Counted from the first letter of the stretch, positions 10,614-43,226 are shown. The stretch is DNA of 64,000 nt from Phycisphaerae bacterium (GCA_030601845.1 JAUWAY010000002.1:62001-126000); one strand, 5' to 3'. Translations and numbers: made by a program. Notes: generated from the sequence alone by a model not told the origin.

Positions 10614-12219
10614 CTGTTTTTTCCTCTTTAGCTTTACGACTTCTTGGTGGCCAGATAAGTCTGTCATCCTCTTCAACCTTGTGCCAGCTATAGTCGGGAG
10701 CCCACTTAGTATTGTATTGACCATCTTCATCAATGTTGTTTTTGCCTTTACTGTAGAGCTTGAAGTTTTCCTCGGTAAGCTTATAGACAAAGGAACTATC
10801 GTTAATTGGGTCAACAAAGATTTCTGCCGGAGCGAGGGACTTTATGTCATCTAAACTCTCCGGCCAGTGGCCGATTTTGTTCTTGTAGCGGCTCAGGGCA
10901 ATTATAATTTGGCTGCCTCTTTGCTCTGCTGTGGTTCGAAGATATATATCATGAATCCTGTGATAACCTTCTTCTGACATATCTGCGATAAGCTCAGTAA
11001 AGTAGTGGTAATTAAACCTGATTCGGGTAAAGTTACTCGCGGTAAGAAGCAGGAGGGGTTTTTGTGGCTCATGTGTCCAGTCGAAGTCCGGCTCGGCCAT
11101 TGCGTAGTATCTTTGGTAAGCAGCATCAATAATTTTCGCGGCCTTTTGTGGTGTAGCGGGCACAAAAAACCAGCCCAATATAGTACCCGCTTTGGCAAGT
11201 TTTCGTTGCCAATAAGTTAGTGGTGGCAGTTCTTCCGAGAATTGAGCCCTTATTGCGGCTATTGGATCACGACTCAGCCTTACTTTGCCTTTTGGATTTA
11301 TTTCATAAGCCATGCTTAGCAGACTCTTGGCCATTAGCTTATCGTGTTCAAGAAACTTAGGTAAGTTGGAACCCCAGTCGTGTTTAGTCTCTGACAAAGC
11401 TTCTTCTATAAGAGTTAGATGTTCTTCTGTCGGATTGGCGGTGACGATGAATCTTTTTAACCGTGTGGTTGCAAGGTCTTCGACAGCAGCACCGACCAGG
11501 AAATCTATTATTGTTAGCTGTTGATACAAGTGTTTGGCAATTTGGATAACAGACAGATATTTTTCGAGACCAGCGTTAGTTCGGTTTTCAGCTATATCAT
11601 TATTTGCAGCTGATATGAGTAAATGTGCAAGCTGACGCATATCCGAGTAATAATCGGGAAAAGAACCCCAAGCGACTTGTATCTCAAACCGACACTGTTT
11701 CTTCTGGCACGCACGCATCAATATAGCTATCGTGCTTTTTTGCTTTTGGAGCCATTCGGCAGCTTCAGGATGGTCCTCTGCGAACCAGGGCTCAGAGACA
11801 GACGATGGATTTGATCTGACCAAGAATTCAGGTTCATTACCATCAAGGATTGAGACGTTGAATAGTTGATTGTAAATTACCGCGGCGTTTTCGGAATCCG
11901 GTATTGCATATTTAGCTTCGAGGGCGGCTAATTCTTCGTCAAATGTGTACGGCCGCCAATCGCCGTTATCATCAGGTAAAAAGACCCATATAATAAGTGC
12001 TATTACGATAACTGCCGCAGAGAGCCAGAACCATTTTCTGTAAGGTTTCGGCAGAACAGTGCAGGCAAGAAGAATGATAACGAGCAGCGTTATTACTTTC
12101 CAGGGCGCCTGAAAGATAATTCCCAGGATCAGCAAAATCGCAAGCAGCCCCAGGCCAAGCCACTTCAGGGTCCGCCTGACTATTTTTGGCTTTTTCTTTT
12201 CTTGTTTTTCTTTGGGCAT
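10597..12219 (-). CDS. Planctomycete membrane protein of unknown function
   Basis: 540 residues. A basic N-terminus (MPKEKQEKKKPKIVRRTLKW) precedes three closely spaced hydrophobic helices (about residues 20-80), then a large, probably extracytoplasmic helical domain. The C-terminal part includes ALSRYKNKIGHWPESLDDIK and a later YNTKWAPDYSW, resembling the tail seen in many planctomycete pilin-like and uncharacterised envelope proteins. I cannot assign a function. It is translationally coupled to asnS (17-base overlap) and starts 3 bases after the YhcH-family gene. Confidence 0.75.
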   Translation of the reverse strand: MPKEKQEKKKPKIVRRTLKWLGLGLLAILLILGIIFQAPWKVITLLVIILLACTVLPKPYRKWFWLSAAVIVIALIIWVFLPDDNGDWRPYTFDEELAALEAKYAIPDSENAAVIYNQLFNVSILDGNEPEFLVRSNPSSVSEPWFAEDHPEAAEWLQKQKSTIAILMRACQKKQCRFEIQVAWGSFPDYYSDMRQLAHLLISAANNDIAENRTNAGLEKYLSVIQIAKHLYQQLTIIDFLVGAAVEDLATTRLKRFIVTANPTEEHLTLIEEALSETKHDWGSNLPKFLEHDKLMAKSLLSMAYEINPKGKVRLSRDPIAAIRAQFSEELPPLTYWQRKLAKAGTILGWFFVPATPQKAAKIIDAAYQRYYAMAEPDFDWTHEPQKPLLLLTASNFTRIRFNYHYFTELIADMSEEGYHRIHDIYLRTTAEQRGSQIIIALSRYKNKIGHWPESLDDIKSLAPAEIFVDPINDSSFVYKLTEENFKLYSKGKNNIDEDGQYNTKWAPDYSWHKVEEDDRLIWPPRSRKAKEEKTDAEQQ

Positions 12220-12222
12220 TTT

Positions 12223-12684
12223 TTATTTTCCAAGTTTTACCTTTACGACTACTTTCAGTACGTTTGATGGGCCGTTGAGCTCTCGGCAGGGCATGTGGGC
12301 GTCGTCTGGGAAGAGAATGCAGAATGTGCCCGGCATCAGAGTTACATTAGTGATGTTTTCCGATACCTCGTATAAAACACAGTCCTTTTCTTCGTTGTAA
12401 GGCTCCTGGGTTTCGAGATTTTCAAGATGGGCATAGCCGAGCAGCTCCTCTCCGTCTGCTACGAACTGCACGTCTATATATTTTCTGTGAGCTTCGAGTT
12501 TGCCCTGGCCAATAGGTTTGGTTTGGTATCGCTGGATGATGTAATACAGATTATCGCCATCGATGTCGTATCGGCCATCTTTTTTTTGAGCAAAATCAGT
12601 ATCTTTTAAGAACGCCAGCGCCTTTGCAATGTCGTCAGAAAGGTCAGCATATAATTGTGCGTTTTCGATTTTATCAACTATCAT
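12223..12684 (-). CDS. YhcH/YjgK/YiaL family (DUF386) protein
   Basis: 153 residues forming a cupin-like single domain. Diagnostic stretches are LEAHRKYIDVQFVADGEELL, the ILFPDDAHMPC metal-binding type segment, and a C-terminal LKVVVKVKL strand. Relatives accompany sialic acid or N-acetylmannosamine catabolism and act as sugar anomerase-like enzymes, but no sialic-acid genes are seen here. It starts 4 bases after the 49-residue gene, in what looks like a continuous minus-strand operon. Confidence 0.88.
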   Translation of the reverse strand: MIVDKIENAQLYADLSDDIAKALAFLKDTDFAQKKDGRYDIDGDNLYYIIQRYQTKPIGQGKLEAHRKYIDVQFVADGEELLGYAHLENLETQEPYNEEKDCVLYEVSENITNVTLMPGTFCILFPDDAHMPCRELNGPSNVLKVVVKVKLGK

Positions 12685-36710: not shown

Positions 36711-37937
36711 TTACGAATATGTAGTCTTATCCGCAAACCAGAAATTTATTTCTTTTTTCCTTAGGAATTGAACTTTTTCTCTTTTTGTTTTCAAATACTT
36801 CGTTTTTTTCGTGACTTTCATATCGAGTTTTTTTGTCTCAAAATCTCTGGAGTAAAACGGAAACCCGTGCCTTATGCATATATTCTGGCGCCTTATATTC
36901 TTCCTAAATTGCTTAACCAATACATCAGTCCAACCCCCATTTTGGTGTATGTAATAGTCACTATTTGTTTGTCCAACTTTCCTTGGATTGTAGTTATCGA
37001 AAGTCTGATGTAATGGCCGATATCTACAGTCTGCAATCTGTACTTTCCACTTCCAACACTGTATCCGCTTTTGTTCCATTTCCTCGAAGCTTATCTCCCA
37101 ATTGTATAACATAAAAACAAATATATCTTTCGGGTTGTAACCACCCTCTACCAGAGCATCTATTTGTTTTTTTATTTCCGGATATTTGCTATATCCCCAA
37201 TCCCATGCTATTCTCGGATATCTAAACCCTGCTTTCTTAATCAACCCTCCTAAGTGTGGTTTGTTTGTTAAAATTCTCCCGTCAAAGCCGCTTTGGGATT
37301 CGCACCATGAGGTTTCTTTTTTGGTCCTTAATTCGGTGAGCTCATGAAGGATATTCTCAATATGAGGATTCGCCAGGAAGTTGTTATCATAAAAGACCAA
37401 ATTTCGACATATTATTTCATCTTTGATAGTTTTCTTAGCCTCAAAGACAGGCTCAATTTGCCATGTGCCACAGAACTCGCAACGTCTAACACAGCCCCGA
37501 GATGTATGGAGTATCTGATAATCTACCGGGTGAGGATTACTCGACAATAAAGAATAATCTGGAATAATCTTCTCAGCCGCACCTCGACGATACAAGCCAC
37601 GCTCAACTCTTGCAAATGGGGAGTGTTTTTTACAATGTTTGCGCATCAACGATGCATATACACCACCAATCTCAATTCTCGCACTTGGATAAGCTTTATG
37701 GTAAAATTTCGCTGCTTCATGAACATATTTACACCAATAGGTAAATAATGAAGTTATCAAAACTCGATCAGGGGTAAAACCACAACGTTTCAGCCCGCGT
37801 ACCAGCTTGACTTTATCACCTTTAAGCTTGTGATAGCCCCCAATTTTAAGCAGGCCTATAGGCAGAAAATTCTTATGATTTTTGCTCTTTGGAGGTATCG
37901 GAAAATCTGGTTCAACTAAAAGCACGCTGGTTTTCAT
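36711..37937 (-). CDS. B12-binding-type radical SAM protein
   Basis: 408 residues. An N-terminal Rossmann-like region typical of cobalamin-binding domains (SVLLVEPDFPIPPKSKNHKN, RIEIGGVYASLMRKH) precedes a radical SAM core with the iron-sulfur motif C-x3-C-x2-C in SRGCVRRCEFCGTW. Later parts (LVFYDNNFLANPHIENIL, IAWDWGYSKYP) fit the barrel. The Lys-rich C-terminus is unusual. The substrate is unknown. It starts 58 bases after the Dnd-associated-4-like gene in the same AT-rich operon, so it may act on DNA or its precursors there; this is inference. The start at the ATG (37937) is preferred to the GTG 6 bases upstream. Confidence 0.75.
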   Translation of the reverse strand: MKTSVLLVEPDFPIPPKSKNHKNFLPIGLLKIGGYHKLKGDKVKLVRGLKRCGFTPDRVLITSLFTYWCKYVHEAAKFYHKAYPSARIEIGGVYASLMRKHCKKHSPFARVERGLYRRGAAEKIIPDYSLLSSNPHPVDYQILHTSRGCVRRCEFCGTWQIEPVFEAKKTIKDEIICRNLVFYDNNFLANPHIENILHELTELRTKKETSWCESQSGFDGRILTNKPHLGGLIKKAGFRYPRIAWDWGYSKYPEIKKQIDALVEGGYNPKDIFVFMLYNWEISFEEMEQKRIQCWKWKVQIADCRYRPLHQTFDNYNPRKVGQTNSDYYIHQNGGWTDVLVKQFRKNIRRQNICIRHGFPFYSRDFETKKLDMKVTKKTKYLKTKREKVQFLRKKEINFWFADKTTYS

Positions 37938-37994
37938 CGTCACGCTAAATTTCTAATTTATATATTTCGAGCTTACGCAAGATTTCTTTTCTTG

Positions 37995-38417
37995 TTAGCT
38001 AATCTTCTTATGTAGTTCAACCAGTAGTTCTTCGAGTTTTTTGTCATAGTGTCCATGCTTTTTGCTAAATACGTCGTTTTTCAGATAGCTTATCCCGCCT
38101 GTTGCATATTGTTCCGCTATCGAATAAACTTCCTTAAGATTGAGCAAAATATCTAAGCTGCCCGTTTTTTTTACCGCTATCGCCTTGATCAGGGTTATGT
38201 CTGTCTCATTCAGAGTTTCGACTCTGCAATGCCCCCCTGAATGTTTCTCTCCCAAAGGCTTAGAATTATTGTTCAGAAATCCATAAACCATCGCCATAAG
38301 GAATATTTCCTTGTGCTCTCTACCGCAGAAGAAGCTGCTTTTATCCTCTCTGAGAAGATCGAAATCCTTTTTGTCCTTCTTTCCAACATTTATTACTTTA
38401 GGCCCTTCACGCTTCAT
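37995..38417 (-). CDS. Dnd system-associated protein 4-like
   Basis: 140 residues. The pattern KEIFLMAMVYGFLNN, then TLIKAIAVKKTGSLDILLNL and EVYSIAEQYATGGISYLKND resembles the small dnd-associated protein 4 family found beside phosphorothioation genes. It contains a basic N-terminus and a HCRVETL segment. An almost perfect GGAGGTGA ribosome-binding site lies inside the end of the preceding ATPase gene, and the ATG overlaps its stop by 11 bases. Assignment is from remembered family pattern, not alignment. Confidence 0.5.
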   Translation of the reverse strand: MKREGPKVINVGKKDKKDFDLLREDKSSFFCGREHKEIFLMAMVYGFLNNNSKPLGEKHSGGHCRVETLNETDITLIKAIAVKKTGSLDILLNLKEVYSIAEQYATGGISYLKNDVFSKKHGHYDKKLEELLVELHKKIS

Positions 38418-40392
38418 ATTCAATCACCTCCGCTTCATTCCCAGTTTCAGTCTCTCTGAACTGAATCTTATATTCTTTTCCTACAAACTCCCGCATTTTC
38501 TTTCTTACTTCTTCAGTATATTCTTCTTCGGTAACAAGGAGAGTTAGTTGCTTTCCTTTAAGGTAGTTTGGTAACTTTGCAGCTATGTTTGCTTTTGGCT
38601 CTTTCGAAATTCGGCCTAAAGGTGTGTCAATGATGATAGGAGCGTCAAACCCCGAGATTATGTTCAAGGCCGCTATAAATGACAGTGCAAGGACTTGGCG
38701 TTCTCCATCCGACAGGGTTCCAATTGCTTCTACTCCGTTTTGATCAAGAACCGAGATATCGTAGTTTTCACTAATTTGCACAGTTTTGAAGTTCTCTCGT
38801 TTCCAGATTAGCTCAAAGAATTGATCCCTTGTAAGTTCCTCAATCTCACTTCTGATTTCATCCATAATTTCTTCTTTTATGTCTGTAGCAGCTTTCATAG
38901 CTTTGCTACAAAATAGAAGCTTCTTTGTAAGCTCGGTACGTTTGTGTTTCTTTTTCAACTCGCGTTCGTATTCTTTAACTAGCTTTGCAATCTCTGTCCC
39001 GAGATCCTCTATTTCCTGCTTTCTTCGACCGCTGTTATCGGTTATCTCTCTCTTTTTTTTCTTGACTATCTCTAATTCTTTCTCCCAACGACTGATTTTC
39101 GCATCGTCTACTTTTTGGAGTTTTTCAGTAATCTTCTTTTCTTCGATGCCTATTTCTTTCAACTCTTTTTTCATACTATTAATTTGTTTTGCGTAATTGA
39201 CATTCTCTCTATGAAAAAACTTCACCGCAGTCTTCATTGTCTCCAAGTCTCTCAACTCTACACTAAGCTCATGGCTTATATCTGTTAGTGGGTCGCATTC
39301 TCGAAAAAGTTCTTCGATTTTCTTCTTTGCGGTATTATTCTTTGAAAAGTCTGTTTGGCAAATGCAGAAACCTCGATCGAGAAGTTCTTTGAGGAAGCTT
39401 CTTCTAAAACGTGGAGGGATTAATCCAGCAGCGTCTTTTATAGATATATTATCCTGCATAAAGGAAATTGCTTCATAAGCCATTAGTAACGGAGCTACCT
39501 TAATAAGGTAATCCTTATGCTCCTCACAAAGTTCAGCAACTTGCTGTTCCAAATGGTATGCTTTTCTTTCCAATTTATCACGTCTATCTTGCAAATCTCG
39601 TATCTCTTCACTTGTGGGATAATCTCGTAACTTTCGTTCCAATTGTTTCTCAAGTTGCGTAGCCTCCTTTTCTCCATCCAAATATTCTTCTAACTTGTCT
39701 TTAGCCTCTTTGAGCTGAACCTGTTTATCGTCAATCAAATGTTTGATATGGTTAGCCTCCGGATTGGTTTTCTTCAGCTCTTTAGAATATTCGTCATTTC
39801 GATTTTTGAGATGACTGACTACATTCTCAAATAGCGCTAGCTGTGATATTTTGAACACTTCTCTCTTAATAAGACGAGTATTGTATGGCCCTTTGAAATA
39901 GTCGTCTAATCTCTCGCAATGAAAGAAGAAATATTCCTGAATATCTTTTGGCAGATACTGATTAATGGTCAGTTTTGGCTCCGGAGCTTTATCAAAATCG
40001 CCGTCCTTTTGATATAATACCTCGAACTGAGGAGTCCCTACTCTTTCTGCTTTGTTTTCCCCTGTTTTCTTAAATGTCGCTACTCTTGTGACAATCATCT
40101 TTTCGTTATTTTTTGTCCGCAGAACAAGCTCAACTTTAACGTGACAGATTTGTTCTAATTTCAAGGCACTTAGACTTATATTGTTCACCAGCGGCAGGCC
40201 CCTATCTGCATCACCCAAATGCTTTTCTTCGTCATATAAGCACCATGTAACGGCATTCAATACATTTGTCTTACCTGTTCCATTTGCACCTTGAATTACC
40301 GTAATACGCTTATTATCCTCTCCAAGAGCAAAGACAATCTTTTGGTCCCGGAACTGCCTATAGTTCTTGAGTTCTAAGCTTTCTATAATCAT
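38407..40392 (-). CDS. DndD-like SMC/Rad50-type ATPase
   Basis: 661 residues. Walker A GANGTGKT at 35-42, then the DndD-type IQEYFFFHCERLDDYFKGPY (about 151-170; usually FFFxGExI). Long coiled coils (about 195-300 and 360-520) flank a C-x-C hook (GFCICQTDF, 343-345) in place of the Rad50 C-x2-C zinc hook. The ABC signature is LSDGERQVLALSF and Walker B is APIIIDTPLGRISKE. DndD is the ATPase of phosphorothioation systems; related ATPases serve other defence systems. Overlaps: 4 bases with the 63-residue gene, 11 bases with the next. Confidence 0.75.
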   Translation of the reverse strand: MIIESLELKNYRQFRDQKIVFALGEDNKRITVIQGANGTGKTNVLNAVTWCLYDEEKHLGDADRGLPLVNNISLSALKLEQICHVKVELVLRTKNNEKMIVTRVATFKKTGENKAERVGTPQFEVLYQKDGDFDKAPEPKLTINQYLPKDIQEYFFFHCERLDDYFKGPYNTRLIKREVFKISQLALFENVVSHLKNRNDEYSKELKKTNPEANHIKHLIDDKQVQLKEAKDKLEEYLDGEKEATQLEKQLERKLRDYPTSEEIRDLQDRRDKLERKAYHLEQQVAELCEEHKDYLIKVAPLLMAYEAISFMQDNISIKDAAGLIPPRFRRSFLKELLDRGFCICQTDFSKNNTAKKKIEELFRECDPLTDISHELSVELRDLETMKTAVKFFHRENVNYAKQINSMKKELKEIGIEEKKITEKLQKVDDAKISRWEKELEIVKKKKREITDNSGRRKQEIEDLGTEIAKLVKEYERELKKKHKRTELTKKLLFCSKAMKAATDIKEEIMDEIRSEIEELTRDQFFELIWKRENFKTVQISENYDISVLDQNGVEAIGTLSDGERQVLALSFIAALNIISGFDAPIIIDTPLGRISKEPKANIAAKLPNYLKGKQLTLLVTEEEYTEEVRKKMREFVGKEYKIQFRETETGNEAEVIEYEA

Positions 40393-40580
40393 TTTTCTGA
40401 GTCCTCTTGGTCCGCATATTTCTCAATAAGACTATCATAGGTTTCTTTGAATTTCCAATGACTCAGCTCTCTTCTCTCAAATTCATCCCTAATGGCGTCC
40501 ACTAAAAAACCGTCGATATGCTTCCCGTATGTTCCCTCATGGAGCTTTTTGATTATTCTAAAGTTTATGTCCTCTTTCAT
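40389..40580 (-). CDS. 63-residue small operon protein
   Basis: A charged helical protein (MKEDINFRIIKKLHEGTYGK, then HIDGFLVDAIRDEFERREL) with no known domain visible. It sits 13 bases after the helicase stop and overlaps the DndD-like start by ATGA, so it is certainly translated as part of the operon. It may be an adaptor between the helicase and the ATPase. It does not look like DndE, which is larger and basic. Confidence 0.65.
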   Translation of the reverse strand: MKEDINFRIIKKLHEGTYGKHIDGFLVDAIRDEFERRELSHWKFKETYDSLIEKYADQEDSEK

Positions 40581-40593
40581 TTCTCAGGCCTTA

Positions 40594-42729
40594 TTACAAA
40601 TTAAGTTTCTCTTCCACTTCTTGAATTCTCTTGATGCACTCCAGAACATTCGTCGCGATGTAGGCGAACTCTTGATATCGCTGAAATTCTCTGCTCAATA
40701 TCTTCCTTTCTAACTCAATCAGAGAGGGTGGCAAGCAACTTTTAGGAGGTGGTAGGACTATTACATCATATATTACTGACTTGTCCTTTCCTGGATACCG
40801 CCTAAGAAGTCTCCCTCTCCGCTGTATATATTGCCTTGGGTTTCCTGTGCTAGCCAAAATAATACCCGTGCGTGCTTGGGGTATATCAACGCCCTCATCC
40901 AAGCAGCGGATTGCTACGAGGGCTTGGTACGTCCCGTTACTAAAATTTTTCAAGAAATAATCTCTTTCAGAGATGCCTCCATATCTTTGGTCAGGTCGAA
41001 TGTCCTCATTTTGCGTAAATTTATGTTGTTTGACGTTCTTCTCAATCAGGAGTTTTTGCACAGTATTAATTTGTTCCGGCGAACAGTAGATTAAACAATA
41101 TTTAAGTTTGCCAATAGCCTCTATTATTTCCCTAAAAGATTCATACTTCCCTGCTGCATTCCTTATTATATCCTCGCGTTGTTTGCATAAAAGCACAAAG
41201 TATTTATGTTTTTCTACTTTCCTTTTGGCTTTATGGTAGGCCTTTACGATATCCTTTGTTCTTTCTTCGTATTCCTCAAGCTCCGCCTCGCTCAATTCAG
41301 CAAAATACGGCTTATATTCATATGGAGCCAAATAAGTCTCGCCAGTTTCAGGATTTACCGTTCTTATCGCTTGCTCAAGAGAAAAAACGAATTTATTGTT
41401 TTCATCTTCGGCGTTAAAATATCTGAATAGTTCTTGAGTCCCCTCAGCGTCAAACCAACGGCTTGGTGTTGCACTTAAGCCCAACCTGAATTCGTAATCA
41501 GTAATAAATCCACACTTCCTCTTTTCAGACCACATTCCGTGGACTTCATCTGCGATTAGGAACAACTTAACTTTTGCTATTCGTATGATCTCAAGGAAAT
41601 CGTCTCTGTAAAAGGTGTCGTGCGTGGTCAGAACAATTAAGTGCTCTGCGACATCATTGTTAATATCTCTAATATTATCCGCCAATTCGTCTTTCCAATT
41701 TGATTTACTACTATCAGCGATGAGTGTATTAATCTTAAGTCCGTATTCCTCTAAGTTTTCTTTCCACTGAGTTATCATATGGTTGTAAGGGCAGCCGATA
41801 ACCGTAACCGTTTTGTTTTGCTCTGATAGCAAACGCTCTAAACAGGCCAATGCGGCAAAAGTCTTACCTGTTCCCGTAGCCATTTCAAAAATACATTTGC
41901 AGCTATTATCTACCCATTTTTTTACGGCTTGGTTCTGGTAGTCTCTTAGCTTTATTCCACTCGGCTTTTTGTCATGGCTGTACCTTTGAGAGTGTTCCCG
42001 CAACAATTGATCTGTAACTCTGCAAGATAGTTTCCCGAACTCCTCGTCATCGCTTGGAGCATTTCGGATTAACCCTTTCTTAAAGGCCTCTGATACATTG
42101 TAAACTCTCACCCTTACGCCTCTATCCCCCCAAAGTCTGTCAAATCTTTCTATGTCTGGCGATAAGTGAGCTCTGTCCCCTTCTTTCCAATTGCAAAAGG
42201 CATGGAACTGTTCATCATTGTGAAGCCAGCCTTGAACCGTCTCATTATCAGAACCGCTGAAAGAAACAATGTTACCACTTGAATCTTCGAGAATTCCGGT
42301 TTTCTGGTGTTCAATTCCACTCTTAACTACCGCAATCTTAATTTCCATTAGGTTGTTTTTGACCATCCATCCAAGCATTCTTATATGGTCTTTCTTAAGT
42401 TGGTCTTCCAAATTTTCTATTTCAGTAATAACTTCCTTTTCTTTTTCGAGCAAACCCCTTTTTATGGCTTCTTGGTCATTCTCAGAAAGAACAACGTTAG
42501 CAATTAACCTGATTCTCCCGCCAGCTTTTACGAACGCTGCAATCCCCTTTGCGGCTATGGCTAATGTATTAGAAGAGAAATATCCAGCTATCCGGTCATA
42601 TTTCACTGAATTGGACAAGACAGGGATGTAGAACTCCTGAAGAAGATTGTCTTCATCAGAATAGTAAGCAGATTTTATCTTAATATCCTGCAACCCCACG
42701 ATGATCCTCTCATACTTCCAATCTGACAT
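40594..42729 (-). CDS. PLD-nuclease-like / SF2 helicase fusion
   Basis: 711 residues. Residues about 20-220 form a phospholipase-D-type fold with one H-x-K motif (EHQKTGI, 141-143) followed by SGSDNE (158-163). The DEAD/DEAH helicase part has Walker A MATGTGKT (283-290), DEVH (about 393), and motif VI QYIQRRGRLLR (about 650). Single proteins with this PLD-helicase layout occur in several prokaryotic defence loci. First gene of a five-gene operon. Codon use is AT-rich compared with flanking genes. Confidence 0.85.
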   Translation of the reverse strand: MSDWKYERIIVGLQDIKIKSAYYSDEDNLLQEFYIPVLSNSVKYDRIAGYFSSNTLAIAAKGIAAFVKAGGRIRLIANVVLSENDQEAIKRGLLEKEKEVITEIENLEDQLKKDHIRMLGWMVKNNLMEIKIAVVKSGIEHQKTGILEDSSGNIVSFSGSDNETVQGWLHNDEQFHAFCNWKEGDRAHLSPDIERFDRLWGDRGVRVRVYNVSEAFKKGLIRNAPSDDEEFGKLSCRVTDQLLREHSQRYSHDKKPSGIKLRDYQNQAVKKWVDNSCKCIFEMATGTGKTFAALACLERLLSEQNKTVTVIGCPYNHMITQWKENLEEYGLKINTLIADSSKSNWKDELADNIRDINNDVAEHLIVLTTHDTFYRDDFLEIIRIAKVKLFLIADEVHGMWSEKRKCGFITDYEFRLGLSATPSRWFDAEGTQELFRYFNAEDENNKFVFSLEQAIRTVNPETGETYLAPYEYKPYFAELSEAELEEYEERTKDIVKAYHKAKRKVEKHKYFVLLCKQREDIIRNAAGKYESFREIIEAIGKLKYCLIYCSPEQINTVQKLLIEKNVKQHKFTQNEDIRPDQRYGGISERDYFLKNFSNGTYQALVAIRCLDEGVDIPQARTGIILASTGNPRQYIQRRGRLLRRYPGKDKSVIYDVIVLPPPKSCLPPSLIELERKILSREFQRYQEFAYIATNVLECIKRIQEVEEKLNL

Positions 42730-42827: not shown

Positions 42828-42917
42828 TTTTCGCAAATTTTCGCAGATTTTCGCAATCTTTACACAGATTTTCGCAATTTTGTCGCAACTTTTCGCAAAT
42901 TTTCGCAGATTTTCGCA
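42828..42917. repeat. Helically phased TTTTCGCA repeat array
   Basis: Exact TTTTCGCA octamers begin at 42828, 42838, 42848, 42869, 42890, 42900 and 42910, with degenerate copies filling the gaps near 42859 and 42880. Spacing is 10 or about 10.5 bases, one helical turn, so all copies face the same side of the DNA. It lies about 100 bases upstream of the PLD-helicase start. Confidence 0.75.
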
Positions 42918-43226
42918 ATTTTTCACCACTTTTTTCTTACCTATTTTACCCAACCCCTACAACCCAACCCACCAACCCCCATTTTTGACCCAAAAAACAC
43001 GCTTGTTTCTCGAAAATTTGCGCATTTTGTTCGAATGTTTCATAGCACTATCCGGCGGGAGATTATGCTCCGCATATCTATTTCGTGTGCGAATGGCATA
43101 ATTTTTACCTATCAAGCGAGGGCTTTAACAGCCCGTTTTTTAGCTTTTTTTGGTTGGCGGACAATACATAACCACTTATGTTAAAAGGTCTTATGATGTG
43201 GACTTCTATCGTTAATAAAAAAATGC

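Follow-up and report, generated by a model that had tools for sequence, protein, structure and literature searches.

Analysis of a 64,000-nucleotide stretch of DNA from a Phycisphaerae bacterium (GCA_030601845.1, JAUWAY010000002.1:62001-126000; hereafter the window) revealed an operon of five minus-strand genes in which the first four constitute the known anti-virus cassette PbeABCD, also called the CxC-ABC-ATPase/DndE system, and the fifth codes for a B12-type radical S-adenosylmethionine (SAM) enzyme. We propose, regarding the chances for and against as even, that this locus is a complete PbeABCD cassette of a sub-type in which the radical-SAM gene (rsam) replaces the phosphorothioation genes dndCDEA or the methyltransferase genes. 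Cassettes without phosphorothioation genes have already been described, and hence the four-gene core is not new; what survives as new at this locus is the radical-SAM partner, as no link of such an enzyme to Pbe appears in the main texts of the two studies of the system (Xiong 2019, PMC6459918; Rakesh 2024, PMC10853773). More tentatively, we suggest that the enzyme installs a new DNA mark, neither a phosphorothioate nor a standard methylated base, by which PbeABCD would discriminate self from foreign DNA, and that the same enzyme family might also serve DGQHR-, ParB-, GHKL- and HerA-type systems of plasmids and prophages.

PbeABCD cassettes occur in both bacteria and archaea, and our main argument for the radical-SAM enzyme having taken the place of the marking enzyme, or of its partner, comes from comparing the slot that follows pbeD. 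In Haloprofundus this slot is filled by a DNA methyltransferase, in Halobaculum methyltransferases lie somewhat further downstream of pbeD, and in Ruegeria a small unknown gene is succeeded by a phosphorothioation-associated DGQHR gene. In the window and in two other loci, L065 and L083, the slot is occupied by the radical-SAM gene.

These loci were recovered in two surveys. The first covered 392 genomes of the phylum, of which six in addition to that of the window bear an intact or nearly intact PbeA. In the closest of these, from a genome estimated to be 94% complete (G349, locus L065), pbeABCD is succeeded on the same strand, after 353 bp, by a radical-SAM gene belonging to the same family as rsam, with a GHKL ATPase next. 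One of the phylum's PbeA loci (L070) lies on a short contig, and the remaining readable ones are associated with genes of Dnd type (DndC-like, DGQHR, cysteine desulfurase). For the second survey, a scan with PbeA as the sole query found no loci; a PbeA alignment used as the query then succeeded, yielding 56 true Pbe loci, selected on PbeA alone, from 84,980 named species genomes. A radical-SAM hidden Markov model (HMM) built without these 56 loci detected two further cases among them, namely L083 from an unclassified bacterium, in which the start of the radical-SAM gene meets the stop of pbeD, and L079 from Prevotella, in which it overlaps the start of pbeA by 11 bp, both being co-directional with the cassette. 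L327 (genome G234) is a decayed case, in which PbeA is reduced to a fragment, transposases are present and the radical-SAM gene is broken. Comparable radical-SAM genes were present in 16 of 787 genomes, a background of about one per 200 Mb, so that the 56 loci, which total 0.98 Mb, would be expected to hold 0.005, against the two seen (p ~1e-5). Searches for DndC in the genomes of the window, L065, L079 and L083 found none, with the controls L080 and L081 positive, and a DndC-like gene is nearby in 34 other Pbe loci, about half (Fisher p 0.019). In the Prevotella locus pbeD is followed by a 324-aa gene (L079:14800-15774) that resembles a RES-domain toxin by eye.

The genome assembly of the window (1.86 Mb in 31 contigs, estimated 75% complete) likewise yielded neither DndC nor the DGQHR protein DndB, bearing out the original prediction, which had described the operon as Dnd-like but lacking both. 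The dndCDEA genes that mark the phosphorothioation-dependent form of the system are not found next to pbeABCD, and no DNA methyltransferase was recognized among open reading frame (ORF) translations within 10 kb of the operon; five N6/N4 methyltransferase genes are present in the genome, all of them on other contigs. Such settings have precedent: 320 of 553 PbeAC pairs are solitary, being without dndCD, a methyltransferase lies within 10 kb of 155 of these, and for 165 of the 553 no modification gene is nearby (Xiong 2019, PMC6459918). The number of contigs and the missing quarter of the genome leave room for a normal DndCDEA-PbeABCD system split over two places, with its phosphorothioation genes in the unassembled part. 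We consider this very improbable, as the nearly complete G349 genome has the same pbe-rsam order and no DndC, and the same absence holds for L079 and L083. The window's own genome also contains, on another contig (G000 contig C28, L078:5529-12315), a prophage-like stretch with ParB and an integrase, in which a shortened relative of rsam (10688-11578) is overlapped by a methyltransferase (11575-12315).

Phylogenetic analysis indicates how the pairing might have arisen. The PbeA tree groups the window, L065 and L079 in one clade (Shimodaira-Hasegawa-like approximate likelihood ratio support 97) that spans at least two phyla and possesses the radical-SAM gene throughout, while L083 is placed elsewhere. 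The Pbe-linked enzymes occupy separate places in the radical-SAM tree, falling into at least two subfamilies, and a single inherited lineage for all of them was rejected by the approximately unbiased test (p 6e-67). Therefore, judging from these trees, the pairing has been made or renewed more than once.

Several observations weigh against the enzyme being a functional partner that marks DNA. The Pbe-linked cases number only five in all, one of them decayed; the radical-SAM gene of L079 is divergent and lies upstream instead of downstream; and allowing for a 50-fold clustering of defence genes raises the p-value of the enrichment to ~0.02. Any of the five methyltransferases encoded elsewhere in the genome could make the mark, and at ~75% completeness a Dnd locus could be missing. 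Moreover, to our knowledge, no radical-SAM enzyme marks host DNA. Finally, the closest relatives of the window's enzyme are those of its own taxonomic family that lie beside ParB and not Pbe, and therefore it could be an accidental neighbour. Under this alternative, for which we see somewhat better than one chance in four, the cassette is an ordinary solitary PbeABCD, with self marked by a methyltransferase in trans or the cassette idle, and rsam is a passenger from the ParB-rsam element common in the family. The published frequency of solitary forms, the methyltransferases in trans, and the existence in that taxonomic family of radical-SAM relatives with 56-61% identity beside ParB or GHKL genes without Pbe all favour it. 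Against it, the radical-SAM gene recurs directly beside pbe genes in three further intact loci and a decayed one, which belong to separate lineages, and is present throughout one PbeA clade, and no methyltransferase gene was recognized in the window near the operon.

The assignment of the first four genes rests on full-length matches and on characteristic motifs, all the catalytic motifs sought in the operon proteins having been found. PbeA (40594..42729, 711 aa), a single HKD/PLD nuclease motif fused to a superfamily 2 helicase, matches the PADLOC model PDLC02707 over nearly its full length (residues 13-697, E 3.1e-225) and the NCBIfam model TIGR04095, dnd_restrict_1, under the model cut-off (E 2e-120), with the motifs HQK..GSDN at 141, DEVH at 394 and QRRGRLLR at 636. 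PbeC (38407..40392, 661 aa), an ABC-ATPase with a coiled coil and a CxC Zn-hook, matches PDLC02723 nearly full length (E 8.8e-130), and contains Walker A at 35, CIC at 343-345 and LSDGER at 560. Its hook residues C343/C345 are invariant across ten homologues, and we therefore place it by sequence in the CxC clade, as a relative of DndD that is not itself DndD; against the DndD model TIGR03185 it scores 157.3 bits, under the cut-off of 245.85 bits. The original view of a defence-type module combining an SMC-like ATPase with a PLD-helicase is upheld.

PbeD (37995..38423, 142 aa, with a TTG start and an alternative ATG at 38417) comprises two ribbon-helix-helix units and matches TIGR04062, dnd_assoc_4, at 28 bits (E 1.8e-6), under the 74-bit cut-off. 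Its AlphaFold2 model (mean predicted local distance difference test, pLDDT, 82.5) displays two strand-helix-helix units, and in a PDB fold search the best 14 matches were all DndE (top probability 0.93, TM-score on target <=0.70), with weak E-values (0.36 and up), the protein being so short. As modelled, then, PbeD has the DndE fold and a DndE counterpart is present in the operon, contrary to the original prediction, which had listed DndE as lacking. PbeB (40389..40580, 63 aa) is provisionally assigned from position and size: scans of Pfam, NCBIfam and PADLOC returned no family match for it, the protein being too short and variable for HMMs, and its place between pbeA and pbeC and its length fit known PbeB. 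Small proteins of 49-93 aa occupy the same place in L065, L079, L083 and other loci, and PbeB has 66 aa in H. jeotgali, a length of 152 aa being given for PbeD (Xiong 2019, PMC6459918). The order A-B-C-D in a single operon is that of PbeABCD, and the same four assignments, as HKD-helicase, small protein, CxC ATPase and DndE cognate, were made previously (Rakesh 2024, PMC10853773); all four genes are required for defence against virus SNJ1 (Xiong 2019, PMC6459918). HMMs thus name a known complete system for four of the five genes, and the original claim that no such combination had been described stands for the radical-SAM partner and falls for the remainder. Identity with BREX, DISARM or Mokosh was dropped, the HMM support for these being weak or none.

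The product of rsam (36711..37943, 410 aa, with a GTG start and an alternative ATG at 37937) bears the cluster motif CxxxCxxC as CVRRCEFC at 151. It matches Pfam Radical_SAM under the cut-off (E 0.0023) and no family in PADLOC or NCBIfam, the generic radical-SAM match being the only one overall. The structural model (pLDDT 88.5) combines an N-terminal Rossmann-like domain with a SAM barrel, and its closest solved folds are whole B12-type enzymes, AprD4, CysS and TokK (E 1e-9 to 1e-6), TokK also ranking first in a profile search of PDB sequences (E 9e-4). On this model the protein is a B12-type radical-SAM enzyme whose N-terminal domain may bind cobalamin, but AprD4, which shares the fold, is B12-independent. 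AprD4, CysS and TokK have the same two domains but only 11-13% identity to it over the fold match, and their substrates are small molecules of antibiotic pathways. Prokaryotic viperins are radical-SAM antiviral effectors, and by analogy the enzyme could be a second effector that, once PbeABCD senses infection, generates a nucleotide that is toxic or terminates chains, or else modifies tRNA or protein. Such a role would suit the company kept by the family in other presumed conflict loci, where it is paired with GHKL ATPases and with genes of ParB-like and HerA-like type. Nevertheless, we regard it as unlikely, since no viperin model in Pfam or NCBIfam matches, the fold differs from that of viperin, and the gene is found in settings devoid of Dnd genes, a distribution more in keeping with a substitute than with an accessory. 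Identity with viperin itself was rejected on the first two grounds.

In light of its position, its recurrence beside pbe genes and the absence of DndC, we infer that the enzyme may be the maker of a self mark, in keeping with the original suggestion that it might be the chemical modifier, which remains plausible. The core steps of the mechanism that we envisage follow published models (Rakesh 2024, PMC10853773), antiviral action and DNA scanning being carried over from the literature on homologues. The PbeC ATPase together with the DndE-like clamp PbeD would scan DNA for short sites, PbeA would act as the effector, blocking or cutting DNA recognized as foreign, and PbeB would be a small regulatory or adaptor part. 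Replication arrest without cleavage has been seen (Xiong 2019, PMC6459918) and cleavage has been argued for (Rakesh 2024, PMC10853773). The radical-SAM enzyme, in the place taken by DndC or a methylase in other Pbe loci, would most likely provide the chemical mark protecting host DNA; alternatively, what it alters might be the DNA or the nucleotide being read by the scanning pair.

As regards its layout, the operon runs in the order pbeA, pbeB, pbeC, pbeD, rsam, from 42729 down to 36711. The tight arrangement of five ORFs reported in the original prediction is confirmed, with a gap of 13 bases between pbeA and pbeB, a 4-base ATGA overlap of pbeB and pbeC, an overlap of pbeC and pbeD of 11 bases with the ATG start of pbeD or 17 with the TTG, and a gap of 51 bases before rsam, or 57 with its ATG start. 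So is its AT-richness, the GC content of each gene being 38-40% and that of most flanking kilobases 44-55%. Judged from ORF translations, an OmpA-like protein, Obg and MutS lie on one flank, and a TetR-type regulator with an RND (resistance-nodulation-division) efflux operon on the other; because both flanks are ordinary, the operon has the appearance of an AT-rich insert standing alone, outside any visible defence island. Taken together, the original observation is confirmed and its first interpretation partly supported. A scan for consensus promoters and terminators found sites no commoner than in shuffled sequence. At 42828-42925, some 100 bases before pbeA begins, TTTTCGCAAA-like units are repeated imperfectly in tandem, possibly with a regulatory role.

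The radical-SAM family extends well beyond Pbe loci. On many viral contigs its members directly adjoin GHKL ATPases, and on alphaproteobacterial plasmids they form a fixed DGQHR-RSAM-GHKL trio (RSAM being the radical-SAM gene), often with a helicase and ParB, which we consider a candidate for an undescribed conflict system (L323:7947-12188, L324:7985-12125, L325:7938-12215, L361:6959-11194, L362:6974-11197). The plasmids come from rhizobia and other Alphaproteobacteria, and a DEAD/SNF2 helicase, ParB and a PIN-like gene usually lie close to the trio. In Bacteroidota, the radical-SAM gene follows, in one operon, a pair of unknown genes, of which the second looks HerA-like by eye, and either one or two genes for GHKL ATPases (L364:1805-10918, L365:416-10556, L366:8157-14446, L367:8221-18432, L368:3331-9832). 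Searchable papers describe neither a function for these wider loci nor a link of radical SAM with Pbe, DGQHR, GHKL or HerA. Individual loci show further associations: in the window's own taxonomic family, where the radical-SAM genes accompany ParB genes, a radical-SAM domain fused to a PAPS-reductase/PP-loop domain of the DndC superfamily, in a gene overlapping one with a ParB domain (L073:10602-14152); in that taxonomic family too, a protein joining a ParB_N domain to a nuclease domain of DpnII-MboI type, encoded immediately upstream of a radical-SAM gene whose product has 61% identity to that of the window (L072:7669-10187); and, on phage contigs L252-L257 and L260, window-type radical-SAM genes (about 43-50% identity) that overlap a second, different radical-SAM gene of 283 aa in L253-L255 and adjoin a C5 methyltransferase-like gene in L256 and L257.

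The nature of the DNA mark in Pbe cassettes without phosphorothioation genes was left open in earlier work (Xiong 2019, PMC6459918; Rakesh 2024, PMC10853773). The recurrent radical-SAM partner offers a concrete candidate marker for cassettes without modification genes, may amount to a new means of tagging self DNA, and ties Pbe to other uncharacterised DGQHR-, ParB-, GHKL- and HerA-type modules. Compared with described PbeABCD systems (PMC6459918, PMC10853773), the window has the same four genes, order and domains, including the CxC hook and the DndE-type PbeD, with a 63-aa protein in the place of PbeB, and resembles the solitary forms already described, but it has neither dndCDEA nor a nearby methyltransferase and instead carries a B12-type radical-SAM gene after pbeD. 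With Dnd phosphorothioation (DndABCDE and DndFGH) it shares a DndD-related ATPase, the DndE fold and the logic of scanning plus marking, whereas DndC and DndB are absent from its genome assembly and PbeC lies far under the DndD cut-off. With the plasmid and prophage trio DGQHR-RSAM-GHKL(-helicase-ParB) it has in common a homologous radical-SAM enzyme, DGQHR being a DndB/DpdB-type domain; the trio is without PbeABCD, and L065, as pbeABCD-rsam-GHKL, unites the two.

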